A stretch of 64,000 bases of DNA from Planctomycetota bacterium (lineage in GTDB: Bacteria; Planctomycetota; Brocadiia; JAADGH01), in assembly GCA_013152475.1 (NCBI GenBank), contig JAADGH010000239.1:62001-126000 (forward strand), given 5' to 3'. The translations under genes were made by a program, and so were the position numbers. Shown here piece by piece: positions 51,322 through 64,000 of the stretch (position 1 is its first letter; every line of letters starts with the position of its first letter). The notes under the pieces were generated by a model, which was not told where the DNA came from, did not search any database, and was given only the letters and a program-made list of their open reading frames with translations.

Positions 51322-54300
51322 TTATTCCTCCACGTCAATCGCAAGAACCGCGGACCGGCCGCTGACCACGTCCGTGAACTTCAGCCGCCAATTTCCCACA
51401 GGATCGTTCAACGCCAAGTTCAGCTTGCCCGTCACTCGTGGCGCATCCATCAAGATGTTCTCCGCGTAGTGGCGAACGGCCCGGCCCCTCGGATCCGTAA
51501 CTTCCAATCGAATACAGTGAAATGCTATCCCCTTCCCCGCGCTCGTGTCCAACGTCACCTCGTACTCTATCGCATCGCGACGTCGGCACTTCTTCGCTCG
51601 CGCGGTCGCGCGCAGTCGTTCAACCGTATAGGGCATCAAAGCAAAAATCTGCGGATCGCCCGGGGTGATTCGTGCCGTCACGCGGTCCGTTTCGCCCATG
51701 AGCTTCTTCCTGCGAACGTCGTAAATATATGTTTTAACGGGGAATATGACTTCGCACTCACGAACCCCCGGATCATCAATGTCGTCATCTTTCACAATCG
51801 ACACATAGTCGCACCGGCCCTTCTTGAATACTGCGATTTCGCACGCGTTCAATTCTCGCCCATCGGAGAGCACCTTGATGCGCCTCTCCACTCCCCCTTG
51901 CGCCAGGAGCTGGCACAGTAGGCTTCTGATCGGTCCCTCCTCGACCTTTTGCCGGAGGTTATAGTACGGTGCAAGCGGGAAGTTCAGCAGGATCGTCTTG
52001 CCCTTACCGACCTCATGAACAATCACGCAGGGCGCACCACTTTCAGAGCCCTTCGCCAACGCCTTTGCACCCGCAAGCGCAAGATTCGTATCATCTGGAG
52101 CAATCGGGATCGTTCCGCCCTCGACAGCCACCTTCTCCCCATCTCCGCCGGGCCGATGTTCTCCCTTACGACGGATTCCGAACAGATCGTCGAGCATACC
52201 GGCGGGCACGGGTTTGCAGTGTCCATCCATGATTCCGGGGCGAATATCCGCCAGCACCATTCCGCCCTGCTCTACAAACTTGCGTATCAGCCGAGCCTCT
52301 TCCGCCGAGATCGCAAATGACTCGGGCAGCACCAGCACCTTGTACCCGCTGAGCTTGCCCTTTGCAATCTGTTCGGTCGCGAGGAAATCAAACTGCATCC
52401 CCTGGTCCTCAACGGCGACAATCGCCGCGTCGTGCACGCTGCGCATCTTCTGTTTGAGCAAGGTATGCGCGTGCACGCTCGGCTGCGAGTAGTGGATGGC
52501 GATGCCGTCATTCAACCGATTCGCATTCATGAATAATTTGCCCAGGCCGCTCTTGATCTCGTCGTTCACCTCGGCCATCCACTTCAACTGCGGCGTCGGC
52601 CGGAGGTCCGGAAAGCACGTGGCGCACCCGCAGTTGAACGTGGTCCAGTACCACGAGCTGTTGAATCCGTGGAAGAGCAGGTGCCACGATACCCGCTTCG
52701 CCGAGATCTCGTCCGCGTTGCCGATCCGATTGTGCCACGCGCCCATCAAAGACCCCGGCTTCGCGAAGCAACGGAGATATTCAATCTGATTGAGACGCTG
52801 TCGGTACACTTGGCACAAGTCACAAGCCTGGCATAGGTTATAGAAATTGTATCCGTGCCAGCTATCCAGGCTGAAGACACCGTCAAAGCCAACCCTCGCC
52901 CGTCCGTCCACCTCCCGGATCGCCTTTCTCCCCAAGGCGTGGGCCCGTGTGAACACCTCCTCCATGTGCATGCGGTGGTCTGCCCATCGCGCGTACTGTT
53001 TCGTGTCTCGCGCCTTTTGCAGATGAATCGGTTCCACATCGTCCCATGCCTTGTAGGACGATCCCCACTCCTGGTTCAACGCGTCCAGCGTTCCGTATAT
53101 CTTGTGCAAATACGTGCGGAAATCCGCCTTGCAGGTTTCAGAGAAGCACACATCCAGCTTTCGGTGGACGAGGAAGTTTTCATCGCCCAGGGTGTAACCC
53201 AGCGGCCCGTATGGCGCCGCCCCCCGAGCGCGCTCCTTCAGCCCTTCAGTCCACTTTTTCAGGTACGTCGGGTCCGTGAGGCATGGCGTTCGAATATCGC
53301 CCGTTTCCTGCATCGACGCGATTCGAGTAATATAGGGAACGCTGCGCAGGCCGTGCCGCGCGGCATTGCGGCAGTACAACGCCGCCATCTCCGCATTACC
53401 GCCCGTGAGGCCCGTGTTGTCGATCGCGTCCACGCCCCATTGCGAATTGACATAATTGATGCCGTCCCGAACCACATTGTTCCCACCACTGCTCCACACA
53501 AGAAATGACCAGTCGTCCCAACGGCTGTCGGGAACCGGAACCTCCTGTTCCTTTTGATCCACAAGCCCCTTCTGGTCAACAAGCATGGCTCGCACTTTGT
53601 GCAGGATCGTCAGAGCCCGAGGCAGCTTGAACTCGAAAGGAATCTCCTTCGTGTTCCCATCCACGGCAGATTGAGCAACACGCAGCAACCGCCCGAGGTT
53701 GTCCCATAGCTCTACCCGCACCTTGCCCGCCGCAGGGGAGTTCCTGAGCAAGACACGCCCGGTGAGTTTCGCACCCTCCTTGCGTTCCCCGGGATTGATC
53801 TGTATCGAATCAATCGCGACGTCCGATTCGGTCACGAAATAGCCCGTGCCCCAGTCCAGGATCTTTCCATCTTTTCGCACAAAGACATCAAGAAAGTGCT
53901 CGCCCGGCTTCAACCGCGGAATTTTCACCCTGTGCACGCTCTGCCCTGTCGGCACGTCCACGTGCAGCTTTCCCGTCGCCTCCTCCAGCAAGCCGCGATC
54001 ATGGACCAGATAACTCAGATCGACCCCCTTCGCCACGCCCCCGGACTCGATGCAGACCCCGCCATCGGCTGCGATCGTCTTCACCCGCAGGTCTCCCTGT
54101 TTGCGGGCGGCCCACAATACGGCCTTTGCGACCATGGACTGGAAGTATTCATAGTCGGGCGGTTTGAATCCCTGGTCCGTCCCCACCGGCGGCGTGAGGT
54201 AGATGTTCCTGTATCTCCCTCCAGCGGGATAATTTGCAATCAACACGCGCCCCTTGCCATAGACGTACGAATCGAATAGGGCGTTTTTCGCGCCCGGTTC

Positions 54301-55803
54301 CTGCGAATAATCCTTGAGAACGGGCAAGTGATCGAGAGGCACACCTTGAACAATAAAGCTCTGGTCGGTGAGGCGTTTCCCGTCAAGGAGATCACGGAAC
54401 ATCTTTCCGCGGCCGGTGACAAGCAGCCCCATGCCGTCGGAAACCTTTTTCATCACGGTGTCGAAAAAATATCGCGGCAACAAGTCCATCTGAATCCCCC
54501 CGATGAGCATGCAGTCGTACTGACCCTCCTCCAGGGCCTTTCGCAGTCGGCTTAGCTCGGTCATCGCGGAACGCGGGGGGTATCCGTACAGCTCGTACGA
54601 GCCATAGATCTCCAGTTCGCGAGGATCATAGACCTGCGACGCCGAACTGAAGCAGATCGTGTCATGGTCGATGTCGAGACGTTGGGCCAGCTCGACCGTT
54701 TCTCTCTGGTCCCAGCGCGGGGCCAGCGCGAGGATCTTCAGCGTCCCCTTTGCATAGGGTTTCGCCCATTCGACATGAGGCGTTACCACCTCGTTCGTCA
54801 TCTTGTCGAAGGGGGTTGGCTCGATCTGGACCACGGGCTTAGTGAAACGTCCGTCGGGCAGCTTCGTCGTCATCTCGACGGCATTGCCCCAATTGCGCGA
54901 CGCGGCGAAGCGCAGGTCTTCCAGGAACGCCTGCCCGTTGCGCCTCAAGTAGGCGATGTTCTCCTCGTTGTCTCGGAACTCCGCGAAGTCGTACAAGGCC
55001 ACATGGAATGCGCGCGTCTGGGGCGGATAGTCCAGTACGGTCCAGATGGGATAGCCCGTAACATGAACGCTGGCGGCGCTCACTTCCTCCGGGAGATAGA
55101 GCAGCCCGCATGCCCCGACGGTCTTGTCGCCGGTAATGGCCTTGTCGTAGTAAACGACCCAGGGCTCCTTGGAGGGGTCGAGCTGCGCCTGGTTCGTGTG
55201 CTGCACCGACCTCACGGAGGTTGTAATCCATCGGTCCTTGTCCCCGTAAAACCCGTTCGGGTAGCAGAGCAGTCGCAGTTGGATCGATTTCGGCTTGGCC
55301 TTCGGCTCGATACCCACCTGCATCAGGAGTTTGTCGTCGCCGTCGCGAAGAAGGAAGCACGCCGTCACCTTGCCCTTCGGTGTATCCCATACGGCCTTCA
55401 GCATGGCATCCGGCCCTCCCCGCCGGACGATTTTGAACACTGCGGGGTATTCATGCAGCCCTTCTCCGTCGATAATCACGTCGAAAAACCCTTGCGCGTA
55501 CCAATTGCACGAGGCGGGACGCGTCATACCCAGCGTAGGCATCTTCTCCTTGAAAACCCACAAACGGGAGAAGCACTTGCCCTTGGGGGTTGAATCGGTA
55601 ATGGAGATGTCGTAGCTGAGCCGGAACCGGGCAATCGTCCCAAGAAAATCGAATGTGTCCCGGAGGTTCTTGCCTCCGTCGATTTTCTTCGTTTCCCTCT
55701 TTTCCTGGAGATAGGCAACACCCATATCGCCACAGGAACATGGAGGCGTTATGGTGAAAAGGATCAGAAGCGCAGCCAGAAAAGAAAACCAGCGTCGAGA
55801 CAT
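51322..55803 (-). CDS. Giant secreted clan GH-A protein, GH42 beta-galactosidase-like
   Basis: 1493 residues. Start ATG 55803 gives a signal peptide (RRWFSFLAALLILFTITPP). Residues about 25-620 are beta-rich plus a ThuA/glutamine-amidotransferase-like stretch (TLKILALAPRWDQRETVELA; YDCMLIGGIQMDLLPRYFF). About 760-1130 looks like a GH42-type barrel: YTLGDENFLVHRK, GTLDALNQEWGSSYKAWDDV and SWHLLFHGFNSSWYW, followed by a beta-galactosidase trimerisation-like domain (YKVLVLPESFAISAEEARLI, VEQGGMVLADIRPG) and a C-terminal beta domain. Residue identity at the catalytic Glu positions is uncertain (GDEN instead of NE-type). Likely extracellular glycan degradation. Confidence 0.75.
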   Translation of the reverse strand: MSRRWFSFLAALLILFTITPPCSCGDMGVAYLQEKRETKKIDGGKNLRDTFDFLGTIARFRLSYDISITDSTPKGKCFSRLWVFKEKMPTLGMTRPASCNWYAQGFFDVIIDGEGLHEYPAVFKIVRRGGPDAMLKAVWDTPKGKVTACFLLRDGDDKLLMQVGIEPKAKPKSIQLRLLCYPNGFYGDKDRWITTSVRSVQHTNQAQLDPSKEPWVVYYDKAITGDKTVGACGLLYLPEEVSAASVHVTGYPIWTVLDYPPQTRAFHVALYDFAEFRDNEENIAYLRRNGQAFLEDLRFAASRNWGNAVEMTTKLPDGRFTKPVVQIEPTPFDKMTNEVVTPHVEWAKPYAKGTLKILALAPRWDQRETVELAQRLDIDHDTICFSSASQVYDPRELEIYGSYELYGYPPRSAMTELSRLRKALEEGQYDCMLIGGIQMDLLPRYFFDTVMKKVSDGMGLLVTGRGKMFRDLLDGKRLTDQSFIVQGVPLDHLPVLKDYSQEPGAKNALFDSYVYGKGRVLIANYPAGGRYRNIYLTPPVGTDQGFKPPDYEYFQSMVAKAVLWAARKQGDLRVKTIAADGGVCIESGGVAKGVDLSYLVHDRGLLEEATGKLHVDVPTGQSVHRVKIPRLKPGEHFLDVFVRKDGKILDWGTGYFVTESDVAIDSIQINPGERKEGAKLTGRVLLRNSPAAGKVRVELWDNLGRLLRVAQSAVDGNTKEIPFEFKLPRALTILHKVRAMLVDQKGLVDQKEQEVPVPDSRWDDWSFLVWSSGGNNVVRDGINYVNSQWGVDAIDNTGLTGGNAEMAALYCRNAARHGLRSVPYITRIASMQETGDIRTPCLTDPTYLKKWTEGLKERARGAAPYGPLGYTLGDENFLVHRKLDVCFSETCKADFRTYLHKIYGTLDALNQEWGSSYKAWDDVEPIHLQKARDTKQYARWADHRMHMEEVFTRAHALGRKAIREVDGRARVGFDGVFSLDSWHGYNFYNLCQACDLCQVYRQRLNQIEYLRCFAKPGSLMGAWHNRIGNADEISAKRVSWHLLFHGFNSSWYWTTFNCGCATCFPDLRPTPQLKWMAEVNDEIKSGLGKLFMNANRLNDGIAIHYSQPSVHAHTLLKQKMRSVHDAAIVAVEDQGMQFDFLATEQIAKGKLSGYKVLVLPESFAISAEEARLIRKFVEQGGMVLADIRPGIMDGHCKPVPAGMLDDLFGIRRKGEHRPGGDGEKVAVEGGTIPIAPDDTNLALAGAKALAKGSESGAPCVIVHEVGKGKTILLNFPLAPYYNLRQKVEEGPIRSLLCQLLAQGGVERRIKVLSDGRELNACEIAVFKKGRCDYVSIVKDDDIDDPGVRECEVIFPVKTYIYDVRRKKLMGETDRVTARITPGDPQIFALMPYTVERLRATARAKKCRRRDAIEYEVTLDTSAGKGIAFHCIRLEVTDPRGRAVRHYAENILMDAPRVTGKLNLALNDPVGNWRLKFTDVVSGRSAVLAIDVEE

Positions 55804-56002
55804 TGGCGTACAATCCCCATGCAGTCCGGATTCATCACAGCGCATCAGCTTGATGATATACTATCCGTCAACGCAACGCAATCCCAAAAAACGCTCTCCC
55901 AAAGGCATGGCCAAAAACGCTTGCTATTGCTCCTCCCCCTTGGTAGGGTCATTTCCTTGCGATTCACAATATCATCCGCACATTTCGGAGAGGGAGGAAG
56001 TC

Positions 56003-57013: not shown

Positions 57014-58357
57014 TCAATACGATTGATCTTCGGCGAGGTCCCAGAGGAGTTCCTTGGGTACCTGATACCGATCATCCGGTTCCTTGGCCATGGCCTTCTC
57101 GATGATTCGGCAGAGGGAATCGGGGAACCCGCTCGCTATCTCTCGCGGCGGTTTCGGGCCCTTGGCGCGGACCTTGGGGGCCAAGTCCTTGAGATCGGCG
57201 GCCTCATAGGGGGGCCTGCCGGTCATCATGTGATAGAAGCACGCGCCCAGCGAGTACATATCCGATCGAAAGTCCAGGTCCTCTCCGTCACGGAAAAATT
57301 CCGGCGGACAGTAGATGAAGTTGGACAGGTCTCGCTCTCCTGCCGCAATGCCTTTCGGGGGCTTCGTGTTCAGCAGGACGCTTGTCCCAAAGCCTCCGAG
57401 TTTGGCGGTGCCGTTCTTGTCGTAAAGGATGTTTGCCGGCTTGATGTCCCGGTGTGGAATCTTGTGTTCGAAGGCATGCTCCACCGCCTGGGCAATCTGT
57501 GTCAACACACTCTTCGCCCGCGCGATCGGCAGGCTTTTCTGCTTTTTCAGAATCGCGTGCATGCTATCGCCATCGACATATTCCATGGCAATGTAGTGCA
57601 CGCCATCGGCTTCATCAATGTCATAGATAAGAAGAATGTTCGGATGGACCAATTGCCCGGCAAGGTTCGCCTCACGCAGATATGCCGCCAGCCACTTTTC
57701 GTCGCCCGTGGCCTTTTCGGACAGAATTTTCAGCGCGACTGTCCTGTGCATCGCGGTCTGTTCGGCCTTGTGCACAGGCCCAAGCTCCCCGTCCCCGATC
57801 TTCTCCACAATGCGATAGGGCCCGACCTCCTTCAGTTCCCCCGGTTTCGCTTCCTTCTTTGCCTTTTTCTTATCCTTCCTTTTCTCCCCTTCCTCCTTGC
57901 CCGCCCCCCGCAAGCGCCGGAGCACACCGCCGGCAAGGCAATCGCCGCAAATGAGCTTTTCACCGACCCAGGTTGCCTCCCCTTGCATGATTTCCTTGCC
58001 CGGCACGCTCCCGTCACACATGTCGCAGAATTTCATTGGGGGCAGATTCGGGAGTTCCTCCGGCTCGGGGTCCTGGAGCACTCGTAATGGCGTAAGCCCC
58101 ATCCCAATATGGTCCCCGTGCTGCAGGGCCTGTTCCGAGATACGTGTCCCGTTCACAAACGTTCCGTTCGTGCTGTTCAGATCGGTAATGATGCAGCCAT
58201 CCGATGTAAACTCGATCTGACAGTGGATGCGGGACAGTTTATGATCCCGGACCGTCACATCCGCTGTGGGACTGCGGCCCATCGTCGTAACGCCTTCGGC
58301 AATGGGGATCCTCTCCCCTTTTCTCTTGCCCGCGAGGTAGACGAGATGGTATGTCAT
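57014..58357 (-). CDS. FHA-zinc ribbon-Ser/Thr kinase with degenerate DFG motif
   Basis: 447 residues. FHA domain (about 20-95: TTMGRSPTADV, LSRIHCQIEF, LNSTNGTFVNGTRI), then a four-Cys zinc-ribbon-like segment (CDMCDGSVP ... CGDCL), a lysine-rich linker (KRKDKKKAKKEAKPG), and a kinase domain (about 178-445). The kinase has VALKIL, PHRDIKPANILYD and a PPE segment, but the metal-binding DFG reads GGFG and the Gly-rich loop is GDGELG. Mg binding and catalysis are therefore doubtful. ATG 58357 follows GAGGGG. It has its own promoter downstream of the HlyD cluster. A phosphopeptide-reading pseudokinase scaffold is possible. Confidence 0.85.
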   Translation of the reverse strand: MTYHLVYLAGKRKGERIPIAEGVTTMGRSPTADVTVRDHKLSRIHCQIEFTSDGCIITDLNSTNGTFVNGTRISEQALQHGDHIGMGLTPLRVLQDPEPEELPNLPPMKFCDMCDGSVPGKEIMQGEATWVGEKLICGDCLAGGVLRRLRGAGKEEGEKRKDKKKAKKEAKPGELKEVGPYRIVEKIGDGELGPVHKAEQTAMHRTVALKILSEKATGDEKWLAAYLREANLAGQLVHPNILLIYDIDEADGVHYIAMEYVDGDSMHAILKKQKSLPIARAKSVLTQIAQAVEHAFEHKIPHRDIKPANILYDKNGTAKLGGFGTSVLLNTKPPKGIAAGERDLSNFIYCPPEFFRDGEDLDFRSDMYSLGACFYHMMTGRPPYEAADLKDLAPKVRAKGPKPPREIASGFPDSLCRIIEKAMAKEPDDRYQVPKELLWDLAEDQSY

Positions 58358-58400
58358 AGAACCCCTCGCAACAGATTCACCCCGACCAGATACCGCCGTC

Positions 58401-58430
58401 AATATACCCGTCCATGTCCCCAAGTGTCAA
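58401..58430 (-). promoter_or_regulatory. Promoter of the FHA-kinase gene
   Basis: Minus-strand -35 TTGACA (58430-58425), 18-bp spacer, -10 TATATT (58406-58401). Confidence 0.6.
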
Positions 58431-58477: not shown

Positions 58478-60688
58478 TCAGACACGGAACATGGTCCGAA
58501 TCTTCGTCCACGCCCAGTTGCCGATCCGCTGGGCCATCGTCCTTTTGCCCACGTAAATCTTCGCTTCACCGGTCAGACCGGGACGCAGGCCCTCTGTTTC
58601 TCCCGTCGGCTTCAGTTCCGCCACATAATACACCAAAGCACTCTTGATACCTTGCTGTGTTCGGATGGCGGGAACGAGATGATAGACCTCCGCGTCCCTG
58701 ATGGCCTGATCACCCGCTTTCCCCTTTTCCTCCAAGCGGGCTTCGAACTCCTTGTCCGGGAAGGCAATCACCTTGGCCCGGGCCACGGCGCCCTCTTGGA
58801 TCTTACTCTGGTCCTCCTCCTCGATATAGGCGTACATCATCATTTCGTCAAGCTTCGCCACGATGCAGAGCACGTCGCCCGGCTTGTACTGCCGGCTCAT
58901 GATGAGGTTGCGATCCAATTCCTCCTTCGGCTCCGCACGAAGCACAACACCAGCGAACGGCGCCGTGATCGTCTCGCGCCGCACTTGCTCGTCGATCTGT
59001 ATGAGTCGCTTGCCGAGAGACTCGATCTCGATGTCGACCGCCTTCGCTTCGGCCGTCTTGCCGCTGCCTTCGGCAATACGCTTCCGTGTCTTGGCCCGGT
59101 CAATATCGTCGAGAATCTTCTGCCGCTCGCGCTCCACATCCTCGCAGTGCAGCTCAGCAATCACATCGCCCTTTTTCACGACCTGTCCCTCCTGGACGCG
59201 GAAGTCGGAGACGTATCCCTGGATCGTCGCCTTCATCTTCTCCATGGTCACAGGTTTGACGACGAACGGGCTGCGCACCCACGTGTCGAGGCGCACGAAA
59301 CACCCCACATAGAGGAAACCAAGCATAATCACACCGGTAATGGCCAGATTCCGCCTCTTCACTTTGACCTCCGTTCTGTGCTCGAACACAAAGACAAACA
59401 TCTTGCGTATGGGCATCACAAACATGCCGATGATCGTCGTCGCCGTAATCCAGAGCCCCAAGGCATAGAATTTATGGAGCATCACGGCGCAGATGCTGAA
59501 CATAAGCATCCAGATCCAGATGGTTGAGCCAAAGCCATAGACCAGATAGAGGGAGGCATCCTCCTCGCTAATTTGCGTCTTCGGCTGCTCGATGCCCAGG
59601 AATGTCTCCTTCAGATATCCGGCAAAGTATTGTGTCGACCGCGCACGCAGGTTCGGAATTTCCAGGTAGTCACTCAGCATGTAGTACCCGTCAAATTTCA
59701 TCAAGGGATTGGCGTTGAACAGGACCGTCGAGATGCTGCACAGGAGCATCATGCGATAGGCAAGCCCCTTGACAAGCGCGATATCGGAAAACGCCCAGAC
59801 AAGGCATGCCATGGCGGCCAGGATCAACTCCGTCACGATCCCCGCTGCGCTCACGAGAAGCCGCTGGTAGCGCTTTTTGAAGATCCATGCGTCGCTCACG
59901 TCACAGTACAAACACGGCATGAGGACGAGGAGCAGAAAGCCCATCTCGTGCACTTCGCCCCCGTAGTGTTTGCAGGTTACACCGTGCCCGATCTCGTGAC
60001 AGATTTTTGTAACGACAAAGACAATCCAAAAGTACATCAGGTTCCTCGGCTCCAGCGTAAAGAGCTGTTCCCAAGGAACGCGGTTTCCGAAGCGGTGGAA
60101 GAGTTCCCAGAACGCGAACCCGAAAAGCATGACGCAAAAGACCACAAAATAGCGCGTGAAGAAGATGCGCATGTACGGCCTCGACCACTCGAAGAAGCGG
60201 TCCGGGTCCACGAGGGCGAATTTGATAAACAGGATGTTTTTCAATTTCGCCCATAGCGTGAGCATCTTCTTCCGTTCTTGGGCGCGCTCGTAGAGCACAC
60301 GATCCTCCCGGGCAAAAACGCGCTCCAGGAAGTTGATGCTCTTCAACTGGTAGGCAAAGTTGAGAATGGTCTGGACGTCCAGCTCAACGTCGTCGAATTC
60401 CGCCTCGATCTTGGCCTTGATGTCGTCAACATTGCTCGTGCCGTCCATCAATTGGAAGACGCTGAACTCCAACTCGGACAGGCGAAAATAGCGGAGGGCC
60501 AAGGGGTCCTTGATGACGTAGAACTTCTCGCCGCGGTGCTCCTGCTCCGTAATCTCCAGATCGCGGCGAACCGTGAACTTCTGCTTCGTCAGCTCAAACT
60601 TCGGCTCGGTCTCCGGACCTTCTCTCCGGCGCGCCGGCTCCTTCTCCGGCCTTTGCTCCGCTTGTTTCTCGATTTCCTTGCTGTCCAC
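58478..60688 (-). CDS. PqqD-like/M50 metalloprotease/HlyD fusion membrane protein
   Basis: 736 residues, GTG start after GGGGAGGAAG. Residues about 40-115 resemble a PqqD/RRE peptide-binding domain (FYVIKDPLALRYFRLSELEF; LMDGTSNVDDI). A polytopic M50 (site-2-protease) domain follows with the zinc motif HEIGH (H231-H235) and the third ligand in NPLMKFDGYYMLSDYLE (D333). After more helices (to about 460) comes a HlyD-type adaptor: lipoyl-like half-motif IQGYVSDFRVQEGQVVKKGD, a helical hairpin and a beta-barrel (TAPFAGVVLRAEP; YKPGDVLCIV). The catalytic residues appear intact. Third gene of a cluster with two other HlyD proteins. Possibly peptide processing coupled to export. Confidence 0.85.
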   Translation of the reverse strand: MDSKEIEKQAEQRPEKEPARRREGPETEPKFELTKQKFTVRRDLEITEQEHRGEKFYVIKDPLALRYFRLSELEFSVFQLMDGTSNVDDIKAKIEAEFDDVELDVQTILNFAYQLKSINFLERVFAREDRVLYERAQERKKMLTLWAKLKNILFIKFALVDPDRFFEWSRPYMRIFFTRYFVVFCVMLFGFAFWELFHRFGNRVPWEQLFTLEPRNLMYFWIVFVVTKICHEIGHGVTCKHYGGEVHEMGFLLLVLMPCLYCDVSDAWIFKKRYQRLLVSAAGIVTELILAAMACLVWAFSDIALVKGLAYRMMLLCSISTVLFNANPLMKFDGYYMLSDYLEIPNLRARSTQYFAGYLKETFLGIEQPKTQISEEDASLYLVYGFGSTIWIWMLMFSICAVMLHKFYALGLWITATTIIGMFVMPIRKMFVFVFEHRTEVKVKRRNLAITGVIMLGFLYVGCFVRLDTWVRSPFVVKPVTMEKMKATIQGYVSDFRVQEGQVVKKGDVIAELHCEDVERERQKILDDIDRAKTRKRIAEGSGKTAEAKAVDIEIESLGKRLIQIDEQVRRETITAPFAGVVLRAEPKEELDRNLIMSRQYKPGDVLCIVAKLDEMMMYAYIEEEDQSKIQEGAVARAKVIAFPDKEFEARLEEKGKAGDQAIRDAEVYHLVPAIRTQQGIKSALVYYVAELKPTGETEGLRPGLTGEAKIYVGKRTMAQRIGNWAWTKIRTMFRV

Positions 60689-60708
60689 CGCAGGGACTTC
60701 CTCCCCCC

Positions 60709-62160
60709 CTACTCCGCCAGATTGGGAAATGTAACCTCCGCGTACAGCCCGGGGGCGATTTCATACTGCCGCTGAGCCACTTCCTTCTCCTGATACTTCA
60801 GAAGATAGTCTTCCGGGTTCGCAAACCCCGTGGCAACGGCCTCGCGTGCCCGCCAGTAGGTCTGATCGATGGTTCCCGACATCGTTGTTCGCGAGACGAT
60901 CAACGCCAGCGCTCTCGCCGCGCCCTGACCCACATCCTTCGACTCGCTTTCAACCGTCTTCGCAAGCGCGTCCAGCGACAACCTCCCCAAACACCCGAGG
61001 GAATTCTCCGCCCACCAACGAACGTCGGCGCTCTCGTCCTTGAGCGTCTGAATAAGCAGCTCAACAGATTTCTTACTCCGCACCCCTCCAAGGGCCCGAG
61101 CCGCAGCCGAACGCTCCTGAACGCTCCCATTCTTCAAGGCCCACACGATCCCCGGCAAGGCCCGCTCATCGCCCGCTTCCGCCACGGCAATCGAAAGCTC
61201 CAGCCGCGCAGCCGGCGTAAGCTTCTCCTGCGTCTCAAGCAGTTTCACAATCTCGTCCAGCGCAGGATTGCCATGCCGAACGGCGCCCTTGGCGCCATCT
61301 CGTGCCTTCTGGACATCGTTCAGTTGATAGATCCTCACCTTTTTCTTTTTCTTTTCCTTCACCACCGCCGGGTTCTTCACCTCGACACGCACAGGAAAGG
61401 TATTGGCCGTAGCATCGGCGATAGGACTTACAAACTCGACCCGGCCCTCATATTGCTTGTCCGGGGCAATGTCGAGCACCACCTTGGCCTTGTCGCCCTC
61501 CTTCACCTTCCCCAGATACTCAATGTCAAGGTCAAGGCGCACGAAGACCTTGTCCAGATTGACAATGTCCACGATCGGCGCCCCGCCCTGGGCGACCTCA
61601 CCCTCATCGAGTTGGGTTTGAACCACCACCCCGCTCAACGGCGAGATCACCAGCCGATCAGCAAGCTGCTTGGCCTGAAATTCCATCGTCATCGCAGCGG
61701 CCGTCTTCTGTGCATACAGGCCGGCAAGCTTCGATACATCCACTGCACGCTGGGCGATTGCCAGCTCCAGGTCCTTCCGCGAGCTGATCCCCTTCCGGAC
61801 CAGTTCCTCCGTCCGCCTGACCTCTGCATCACGCAGCACGACCACGTTTTCCTCACTGCGAATATCCGACTGGTCGTTGTAGCTCACCACCGACTGAATG
61901 AAGCTGAGGTGCGCCTCACGATCGTCGAGATGCACGAGCAACTGTCCCTCTTCCACATAGTCGCCCTTCTCCACAAGCATCTCGGTGATTTGGGCGCGGT
62001 CGGTCGTCCGCAAGGGACAGGAGACCGACACCACGGGGTTCGGCTCAATGGGACCCTTGAACGTCTTCAGCTTTTTTTTTGAATCTTGCGCGTTCCCCTC
62101 CCCCATGAGCACGCACAGCCCCAGGATCGTGGCCACGGCGCCTACACGGACTTTCCTCAT
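60709..62160 (-). CDS. Periplasmic HlyD-type adaptor with HEAT-like repeats
   Basis: About 483 residues. Start ATG 62160 yields a signal peptide (RKVRVGAVATILGLCVLMGEGNAQ) with GGAGAG upstream; in-frame ATGs at 62232 and 62262 (the latter overlapping the upstream stop) are alternatives. The RND/HlyD adaptor part (about 35-285) has MLVEKGDYVEEGQLLVHLDD, a hairpin, ISPLSGVVVQTQLDEGEV and a barrel. The C-terminal 180 residues form HEAT/PBS-like helical repeats (RSAAARALGGVRSKKSVELL; DVRWWAENSLGCLG), an unusual addition. 20 bases upstream of the M50 gene. Confidence 0.82.
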   Translation of the reverse strand: MRKVRVGAVATILGLCVLMGEGNAQDSKKKLKTFKGPIEPNPVVSVSCPLRTTDRAQITEMLVEKGDYVEEGQLLVHLDDREAHLSFIQSVVSYNDQSDIRSEENVVVLRDAEVRRTEELVRKGISSRKDLELAIAQRAVDVSKLAGLYAQKTAAAMTMEFQAKQLADRLVISPLSGVVVQTQLDEGEVAQGGAPIVDIVNLDKVFVRLDLDIEYLGKVKEGDKAKVVLDIAPDKQYEGRVEFVSPIADATANTFPVRVEVKNPAVVKEKKKKKVRIYQLNDVQKARDGAKGAVRHGNPALDEIVKLLETQEKLTPAARLELSIAVAEAGDERALPGIVWALKNGSVQERSAAARALGGVRSKKSVELLIQTLKDESADVRWWAENSLGCLGRLSLDALAKTVESESKDVGQGAARALALIVSRTTMSGTIDQTYWRAREAVATGFANPEDYLLKYQEKEVAQRQYEIAPGLYAEVTFPNLAE

Positions 62161-62261
62161 TGCATTCACTCTCCGCAAAACCAGATCGGACATGTATTGA
62201 ACATGAGTAACCCGAAAGCGGGCATCCCCCATGACGCCTCCATTCAGCCTTCTCCCCGTCA

Positions 62262-64000
62262 TCAGAAGAGGATGCGGGTCTTGACGAAGTTGATGACTCT
62301 ACGGAACAGGATGTACCACACGGGCTGTTGGTCGATATAGATATACGCCTGCCCCGTCATGTTGGGCAGCAGGCCCTTTGCCTGGCCGAGCTTCGCCGTG
62401 ACACGAAAGACGTTCTGCTTCTCGCGCGGCGTCGAGGCGGTTGAAATCTCGGCTACGGCCGACCGAATCTCCTCCGTCTCGGGCCGGATGAACTTCACTT
62501 CCTGACCCTTCTTGATGAACGAAATGTCCGACTCGTCCACGTAGAGCCACAGTTCCATCTTGGCCAGGTCCACAATCTCGCACAGGCGCGTCCCGCCGGT
62601 CACAGGAGTATTCAGCAGGCGCTGCTTCAGCTCGGGCGTCACCACCGTACCGCTCACCGGGGCCTTGATACTGCCGCGCTCGATCCGGTCCGCGTAGTAA
62701 TCCCGGTTTGCGCGAAACTTCTTGGCCTCTTCCTGCCAGTAGAGGCGCTCGGCGACGGTCTTGGCCATGCGCGCCTTCTGCTCGGCGCCTCTCGCCTCCG
62801 CATCCTGGATCTCATAATTTCTAATATCGGCTTGGTTCTGCACGACGAACAGCAACTTTCCCTTCTCTACACGGTCGTTCGTGTCCGCGTTGACCTTGCT
62901 GATAAGGCCGTCAATCGTCGTATACACCGCCCCATAGACCTCCGACGCCACTTGCGCCTCCGCAGGGATCCGGAAACTCCACGGGACGAACAGCACCGCG
63001 ATCAACCCAACCACGAGCGCCGCCTTGAAGGCCAGTTTCAGCTTCGACTGCTTCTGAAGGCTCTCCTTCCACTGCCCGACACGCTCCAGCGTCCGGACCA
63101 TCGGCAGCCGCTGGTACTTGATTGCGTTCTTCAGGACAATGAGCGAGTGGTTCGAGATGTTCTGGATGACGCTCATGTCCGTGCCATCGAAGGGCACGCC
63201 CTCCTTCCGCTCGAAGCACAGCACACCGATGGGTTTTCCATCGTCCTGCAGCGGAACACCTACGATCGCCGACATCGAGGCCGTCTCAAAATATCGTTCG
63301 AGAATGTTGCGCATCCGCTCGTCCTCGATCTCGTCGAGTCGTTCCTTGGTGAAGAGCTGCACCTCCCCCGTGCGCGCGATGCCCTTGCAAATCTCCGTGA
63401 GCATCTTCACCAGGCTGCTGCGGCGCTGGACCATATCCTGCCCCGAAATCGCATTGATCTCAGGACGCCCGCGTCTCATAAGCGCCACAAAGCAGCGATC
63501 CGCTCGCGCCACATCGGCCGACAGGTTGGCGATAGCGAAGCAAATCTCCTCCGGATTGAGCGTCGTGGATATCTCGCCGGATAGTTTTACGAGAGAATCC
63601 AAGCGCTCGGCACGGCCCGCCAATTGCCGGCACTTCCACCCCAGGCAGTAGGCCTTGAGATAGCTGGCAAGGCTCTTGAGGAGGAACACGTCGGTTCCGT
63701 CGAACCGGCGGAGGTTGCTGTCGGAATACAGAAAGATGGCCCCCGAGTTGTCCGCATCGATCTCGAAGGGCACACAGACCGCCGCCAGTGCGTCGATCCC
63801 CGCATCCTTTCCAAGGGCGCGGGCGAGCTCGCTGTCGGCCTGATCGGGCTGGACCACAATCGAGTTGTCGCTCTTCAGGGCGTTGCCGATTGTCTTCCCG
63901 ACGGTCTCAATGTCCGGCCCTCGGGGCCCCTGGCCTTCGGGGGGACTGCCATCCACGCGGCACATGAGGCGATCCGCATTGCTCTCGTAGAGCCATAGAG
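62262..64000 (-). CDS. GAF-domain/HlyD membrane protein, 5' end outside window
   Basis: At least 579 codons; the frame continues past 63965 to the window edge (LWLYESNADRLMCRV), so the true start is outside. Two GAF-like segments precede a membrane helix: an incomplete first one (LAAVCVPFEIDADNSGAIFLY) and a second (ISTTLNPEEICFAIANLSAD ... MSAIVGVPLQDDGKPIGVLC). After one transmembrane helix (KAALVVGLIAVLFVPWSFRI) comes a HlyD adaptor: VYTTIDGLISKVNADTNDRV, a coiled coil and SIKAPVSGTVVTPELKQRLL. Cytoplasmic sensing is thus fused to a periplasmic adaptor. First visible gene of the three-gene cluster. Confidence 0.85.
   Translation of the reverse strand, partial: LWLYESNADRLMCRVDGSPPEGQGPRGPDIETVGKTIGNALKSDNSIVVQPDQADSELARALGKDAGIDALAAVCVPFEIDADNSGAIFLYSDSNLRRFDGTDVFLLKSLASYLKAYCLGWKCRQLAGRAERLDSLVKLSGEISTTLNPEEICFAIANLSADVARADRCFVALMRRGRPEINAISGQDMVQRRSSLVKMLTEICKGIARTGEVQLFTKERLDEIEDERMRNILERYFETASMSAIVGVPLQDDGKPIGVLCFERKEGVPFDGTDMSVIQNISNHSLIVLKNAIKYQRLPMVRTLERVGQWKESLQKQSKLKLAFKAALVVGLIAVLFVPWSFRIPAEAQVASEVYGAVYTTIDGLISKVNADTNDRVEKGKLLFVVQNQADIRNYEIQDAEARGAEQKARMAKTVAERLYWQEEAKKFRANRDYYADRIERGSIKAPVSGTVVTPELKQRLLNTPVTGGTRLCEIVDLAKMELWLYVDESDISFIKKGQEVKFIRPETEEIRSAVAEISTASTPREKQNVFRVTAKLGQAKGLLPNMTGQAYIYIDQQPVWYILFRRVINFVKTRILF

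Follow-up and report, generated by a model that had tools for sequence, protein, structure and literature searches.

What could three adjacent HlyD-type adaptor proteins serve, when no pump lies beside them? The question is raised by one end of a 64,000-nucleotide stretch of DNA from a Planctomycetota bacterium (the window; contig C60:62001-126000 of a 6.5 Mb genome in 250 contigs, with a completeness of 95% and a contamination of 6.9%). There, three tightly packed head-to-tail genes on the minus strand encode a GAF-HlyD, an HlyD-HEAT and a PqqD/M50-HlyD protein (hereafter the trio), which probably constitute the inner-membrane and periplasmic part of a type I-like secretion machine devoid of an ATP-binding cassette (ABC) transporter, with a short SecA as its motor and with cargo carrying an N-terminal LExRx(L/A)(L/P) tag. 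The trio itself, its membership of an already described module and its links to LEPR proteins and to short SecA are well supported, and the comparison of genomes suggests that the cargo consists of surface proteins of very large size, joined in one relative by small peptides, all bearing the LEPR tag.

The trio and its module

The open reading frames (ORFs) and Pfam profiles bear out the initial annotation of three consecutive minus-strand genes, each with an HlyD adaptor module. HlyD scored above the Pfam cut-off in all three proteins, and so did the domains fused to it, namely GAF (2e-13), HEAT_2 (4e-11) and Peptidase_M50 (9e-8). The spacing is operon-like, with the stop codon of the GAF-HlyD gene overlapping the start of the HlyD-HEAT gene and 20 bp between the latter and the M50 gene. 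The complete GAF-HlyD ORF, which continues beyond the window end, spans C60 124262-126190 (L001 4263-6191) and encodes 642 residues. In HlyD-HEAT, N-terminal hydropathy places a signal-peptide-like hydrophobic segment after an internal methionine, Met35, which is the likely start. The HEAT repeats were ruled out as a general feature of the module, since other loci have none and three of them carry WD40 repeats on the middle HlyD protein instead (L056 3633-5936, L101 5780-7963 and L132 5474-8008).

In the PqqD/M50-HlyD protein the protease motifs HEIGH (residues 231-235) and FDGYY (residues 332-336) are intact, as first noticed, and the metal-binding residues are conserved: H231, E232, H235, N325, P328 and D333 are invariant in an alignment of 28 homologues. 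The PqqD-like domain that had also been proposed fared less evenly. The Pfam PqqD match of the window's own protein is weak (E=0.026, below the cut-off), whereas 11 of the 28 homologues match at E<=0.01 and the NCBIfam model of the PqqD-M50 daptide protease (NF041824) covers residues 47-429 with E=1e-60, at a score (205.9 bits) under the 300-bit equivalog cut-off. The AlphaFold model (mean predicted local distance difference test score of 82.9) shows with good confidence a fold of three strands and three helices at residues 45-117, followed by the membrane helices and then by a MacA/MexA-like HlyD arm. A fold search of the PDB, dominated by the HlyD part, also gave a resemblance of this part to MacA/MexA and returned nothing on the PqqD domain. 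The accompanying hint at leader recognition proved useful, given that a shared N-terminal leader marks the presumed cargo.

Of the 294 genomes of the phylum, 68 encode the M50-HlyD protein, and the named relatives of the present genome that have it are mostly Planctomycetota. The neighbourhood comparison called for by the initial annotation revealed that the order GAF-HlyD, HlyD, M50-HlyD recurs widely across the phylum. A SecA-like ATPase of ~630-750 residues occurs in ~20 clusters, and proteins of the OEP/TolC and DUF3467 families recur in them as well. The three cluster SecAs that were scanned contain SecA_DEAD, SecA_PP_bind and P-loop_SecA domains, with no match to the wing/scaffold region. 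Taken together, the outer-membrane component and the truncated SecA-like ATPase in the relatives' clusters indicate that the missing pump corresponds to a motor that is neither of the ABC nor of the resistance-nodulation-division (RND) type. In the genome studied here, a short SecA of 626 residues is encoded at C126:205-2082; aligned to the 1004-residue housekeeping SecA, it ends shortly past the second nucleotide-binding domain. The same genome has four OEP ORFs and DUF3467 matches, none of them linked to the trio.

The DUF3467 protein, of ~110 residues, stands beside the M50 gene in ~20 loci (e.g. L036, L089, L117 and L158), and a role as a chaperone or tag-binding factor is possible.

Leader-bearing proteins as candidate cargo

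A closer view of the presumed cargo is provided by five proteobacterial plasmids, from Methylosinus, Pseudosulfitobacter, Thalassospira, E. coli and Azospirillum, in which the cluster adjoins one giant gene (4,000-12,700 residues). All five readable N-termini of these giant proteins are LEPR-like (DTLEPRVLLN, ETFEPRVLLS, EPIEPRILLS, FALESRQLFD and FALEPRFMFD), and a sixth plasmid, from Rhodobacteraceae M382, also has a giant ORF, the start of which was not reached. TolC and DUF3467 accompany the dedicated giant protein in the plasmid clusters. Planctomycete and verrucomicrobial loci present LEPR-motif ORFs adjacent to the M50 gene or a few genes from it (L035, L036, L040, L048, L051, L056, L070, L117, L156 and others), and altogether the proteins with the leader beside clusters range from 1,000 to 12,700 residues. 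Most LEPR N-termini are without a hydrophobic stretch of the Sec-signal type; hydrophobic windows do lie inside the ORF as read in L035, L036 and Azospirillum, where the start codon is uncertain.

On the E. coli plasmid NZ_CP081687.1 (L160), a giant immunoglobulin-like protein, TolC, HlyD proteins and M50-HlyD are found beside an IS1 element. M50 matches are present in 18 plasmid records from Escherichia and 8 from Citrobacter.

The LEPR pattern used for these neighbourhoods was picked after the first examples had been seen, and the tests with an independent curated NCBIfam model, LEPR-XLL (NF012209), therefore matter more. Among the matches listed, 34 of the 38 genomes with LEPR-XLL over the cut-off are M50-positive (nominal hypergeometric P of 3e-21 over the 294 genomes, which ignores shared ancestry, as does the value below), as are 26 of the 27 genomes at >=19 bits. 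Short SecA behaves likewise, with 35 of 36 genomes among the matches listed being M50-positive (nominal P 3e-25). LEPR matches lie no more than 8 kb from an M50 gene in 8 of 102 cases, against 0.66 expected. The type of the adjacent leader (AP, LL or FD) clusters on the M50 tree, with 4 changes compared to a shuffled mean of 8.8 and 0 of 200 shuffles as low; tag reading by the M50 protein would lead to such clustering, but common descent could give the same pattern.

In the genome of the window itself, the DNA pattern ELExR[VI]AP has 15 matches, compared to 1 in a reversed control, and 13 of the 15 are located close to where long ORFs begin. With few exceptions these 13 share the leader [R/K]-x-H-[R/K]-x-L-x-x-E-E-L-E-x-R-[VI]-A-P. 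At least 13 leader proteins are thus encoded, of which four were read whole (7,725, 1,660, 1,621 and 1,142 residues). A run of 24 N bases near the 3' end of the longest makes its true end unsure.

Small leader-bearing ORFs, in line with the search for small precursors advised by the initial annotation, were found in one relative. Directly before the PqqD-M50-HlyD gene of L071 (7146-8383; G188:C14) there are five tandem ORFs of 54-74 residues, each of which begins with an M..K.L..E.LE[PE]RIAP[TS] leader and goes on with a hydrophilic stretch of variable sequence, rich in G, N and P. Judged by their sequences, they resemble a family of peptides sharing one leader, and the presence of the leader on such small ORFs speaks for the motif being a tag and not part of the giant-protein fold.

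A proposed export route and its rivals

From these associations we infer every molecular step of the export route, that is, tag docking, motor use, tag cleavage, the conduit or channel and its gating. The tag would be docked in the cytosol by the PqqD-like domain of the M50 protein, and the truncated SecA-like ATPase would push the unfolded LEPR-tagged chain. The M50 membrane domain may act as the channel, or as a peptidase trimming the tag, and the three HlyD proteins would build a tube across the periplasm that ends at a TolC-family protein. A cytosolic signal could act on the GAF domains to gate this conduit, and the HEAT repeats (or the WD40 repeats, in the three loci that carry them) may hold the cargo as it emerges into the periplasm. 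The leader proteins described above, including the one of 7,725 residues on the same contig, would be the cargo in this genome. A further-reaching version, put forward tentatively, is that of a distinct pathway in which a finger-less SecA drives LEPR-leader proteins through a PqqD-M50-HlyD channel and not through SecYEG, in one step from the cytosol to the outside by way of HlyD and TolC; the tag receptor would be the PqqD-like domain.

Several observations weigh against the proposed machine. Besides the sub-threshold PqqD match and the neglect of shared ancestry in the P values, the trio has no SecA, TolC, DUF3467 or LEPR gene as a direct neighbour in this genome. The short SecA and the OEP genes are on other contigs of the fragmented assembly, and the contamination level together with this separate location means that the SecA contig, C126, could be foreign. 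For about half of the M50-positive genomes, the matches listed include no short SecA. The genome's own leader proteins stay below the 17-bit cut-off of NF012209 (best E 0.278), so that by this test they are an AP variant and not members of the family; two of them have no NCBIfam match, and the model does not detect the AP form in three verrucomicrobial genomes tried. The stricter LEPR[VI]AP DNA pattern is at chance level across the phylum except in this genome (G000) and in G188, which rules it out as a phylum-wide DNA marker. Most of the candidate cargo in this genome is, moreover, unlinked to the trio.

PqqD-like domains commonly recognize the leaders of RiPPs (ribosomally synthesized and post-translationally modified peptides), and the initial annotation had accordingly considered a sensed, protease-gated apparatus for peptide processing and export, of which the export half is supported by the TolC/OEP proteins and the SecA-like ATPase in relatives. 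A RiPP-like system, in which the PqqD/M50 protein matures small leader-bearing peptides, the HlyD parts export them and the large LEPR proteins are incidental, would agree with the architecture captured by the daptide protease model and with the tandem small ORFs of L071. It is nevertheless unlikely: the daptide score is under the equivalog cut-off, no RiPP-modifying enzymes were noted among the genes read around the trio, such small arrays occur at only one of ~110 loci, and the same leader stands on the very large proteins beside the clusters, which are the usual cargo. M50 proteases often cut anti-sigma factors, and a site-2-type protease in a stress pathway of the envelope that uses the HlyD and GAF modules as sensors would be in keeping with the FHA-kinase gene located just downstream of the M50 gene. 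This is very unlikely, given that no sigma/anti-sigma pair was noted at the trio and that three HlyD modules, plus the SecA-like ATPase and TolC of the relatives, point to transport.

That the trio is a conventional efflux set supplying adaptors for a distant RND or ABC pump finds some basis in the HlyD/RND-adaptor domains of all three proteins, in the MacA/MexA-like HlyD part and in an RND set starting ~4.5 kb past the GAF-HlyD gene. No ABC or RND gene was found within the 5.5 kb of the trio, as the initial annotation had stated, and no HlyB-type ABC transporter among the neighbouring ORFs read, which reach from the end of the window to as much as 20 kb past it. An exporter of the kind to be looked for upstream of position 64000 does exist in the form of this RND set. 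In an RND tripartite system the adaptor is co-transcribed with the pump, whereas this set is encoded on the opposite (plus) strand and includes an adaptor and a TetR regulator of its own, and a partnership with the trio was therefore rejected. As the homologous clusters pair with a SecA-like ATPase and giant proteins and the M50 active site is invariant, conventional efflux is very unlikely.

The remaining surroundings of the trio are less informative (Table 1). Regulation of the trio by the FHA-kinase is possible; FHA-kinase-like ORFs near the M50 gene were seen only in L066, L068 and L069. Glycoside-hydrolase-type genes lie downstream of it, and a PilZ-like ORF beyond the window end is on the strand opposite to the trio. 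A GH42-like protein of 1,507 residues on one flank (window 51322-55845) and an ORF of 1,136 residues on the other (L001 6823-10233) are unrelated to the trio as far as seen. A phage origin was discarded, as no match was obtained among 50,697 phage records.

Table 1. Genes of the trio, leader-bearing ORFs on the same contig and the flanking kinase gene (window positions unless a contig is named)
Feature	Position	Strand	Description	Basis
PqqD/M50-HlyD	58478..60688	-	736 residues; PqqD-like domain (~45-117), M50 intramembrane metallopeptidase (HEIGH, NANPLMKFDGYY), C-terminal periplasmic HlyD adaptor	Pfam/NCBIfam, 28-member alignment, AlphaFold, PDB fold match
HlyD-HEAT	60709..62262	-	517-residue ORF; periplasmic HlyD adaptor, C-terminal HEAT repeats	Pfam HlyD_D23, HlyD_3, HEAT_2
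GAF-HlyD	62262..64000, runs on to window-equivalent 64190	-	642 residues; GAF domains, one probable transmembrane segment, periplasmic HlyD adaptor	Pfam GAF, HlyD_3
Repetitive leader ORF, 7,725 residues	C60:139257-162434 (L001/L002/L072)		~13 kb beyond the trio; starts MKTDSRIHRRLWVEELEPRVAPA	
Leader ORF, 1,142 residues	C60:166900-170328		starts MITRLHKLLHIEELEPRIAPV	
FHA + Ser/Thr kinase	57014..58423	-	54 bp downstream of the M50 gene	Pfam FHA, Pkinase

Relation to known systems

The module was known before, and its probable cargo appears to be new. HlyD, GAF and M50 proteins clustering with a truncated "secondary SecA", and sometimes with OEP, were described by Kamneva, Poudel and Ward (2015, PMC4452313), who proposed SecA as the ATPase and M50 as a possible pore. 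The role of the module is there called "completely unknown", so that the trio does lack a characterised function, as the initial annotation had it, but not a previous description. The available portion of that article treats neither PqqD, LEPR proteins nor any cargo. The main text of a paper on polymorphic toxins (PMC3482391), considered as another earlier description, names no HlyD, M50 or PqqD and was set aside. LEPR-XLL was found in only two papers, in one of them as a passing mention, and no paper describing an export route of LEPR-tagged giant proteins was found in a search that was thin on preprints and subscription papers, so that later work is possible. Linking the orphan machine, the SecA-associated HlyD/M50 module of 2015, to the orphan LEPR tag yields a single export route that is open to testing and occurs in Planctomycetota, Verrucomicrobiota and Proteobacteria, enterobacterial plasmids among them. 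If this link is true, a SecA-type motor would work outside the context of the classical Sec channel, and a PqqD-like domain would serve to read tags on very large proteins.

The trio is a member of this known but uncharacterised module. It comprises a GAF-HlyD protein, an M50-HlyD membrane protein and a further HlyD protein; a secondary SecA_DEAD protein without SecA_SW is present in the genome, unlinked to the trio, and OEP is sometimes near in the module as described. What sets the present case apart from the general description is the HEAT region added to the middle HlyD protein and the unlinked SecA, although the parts may be encoded separately and, according to PMC4452313, SecA is unlinked to the rest of the module in some cases.

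With type I secretion (HlyB-HlyD-TolC) the proposed machine shares the HlyD adaptor, the TolC-family exit in relatives and very large repetitive cargo; it differs in having a SecA-like ATPase and no ABC transporter, and in the N-terminal tag of its candidate cargo, compared to the usual C-terminal signal of type I cargo. The second SecA ATPase of the Gram-positive accessory Sec system, SecA2, is likewise associated with large surface proteins, but the SecA described here is without wing and two-helix finger and pairs with HlyD, M50 and TolC proteins. Like the daptide M50 protease (NF041824), the M50 protein of the trio has a PqqD-like domain fused to M50; the 379 positions of that model match only this part, with a sub-cut-off score, and no daptide genes are seen at the locus. 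Finally, the leader proteins resemble the LEPR-XLL family in their short N-terminal LEPR motif on giant proteins, a family with strong co-occurrence with the module, and differ from it in that the window's genome uses the LExR[VI]AP form.

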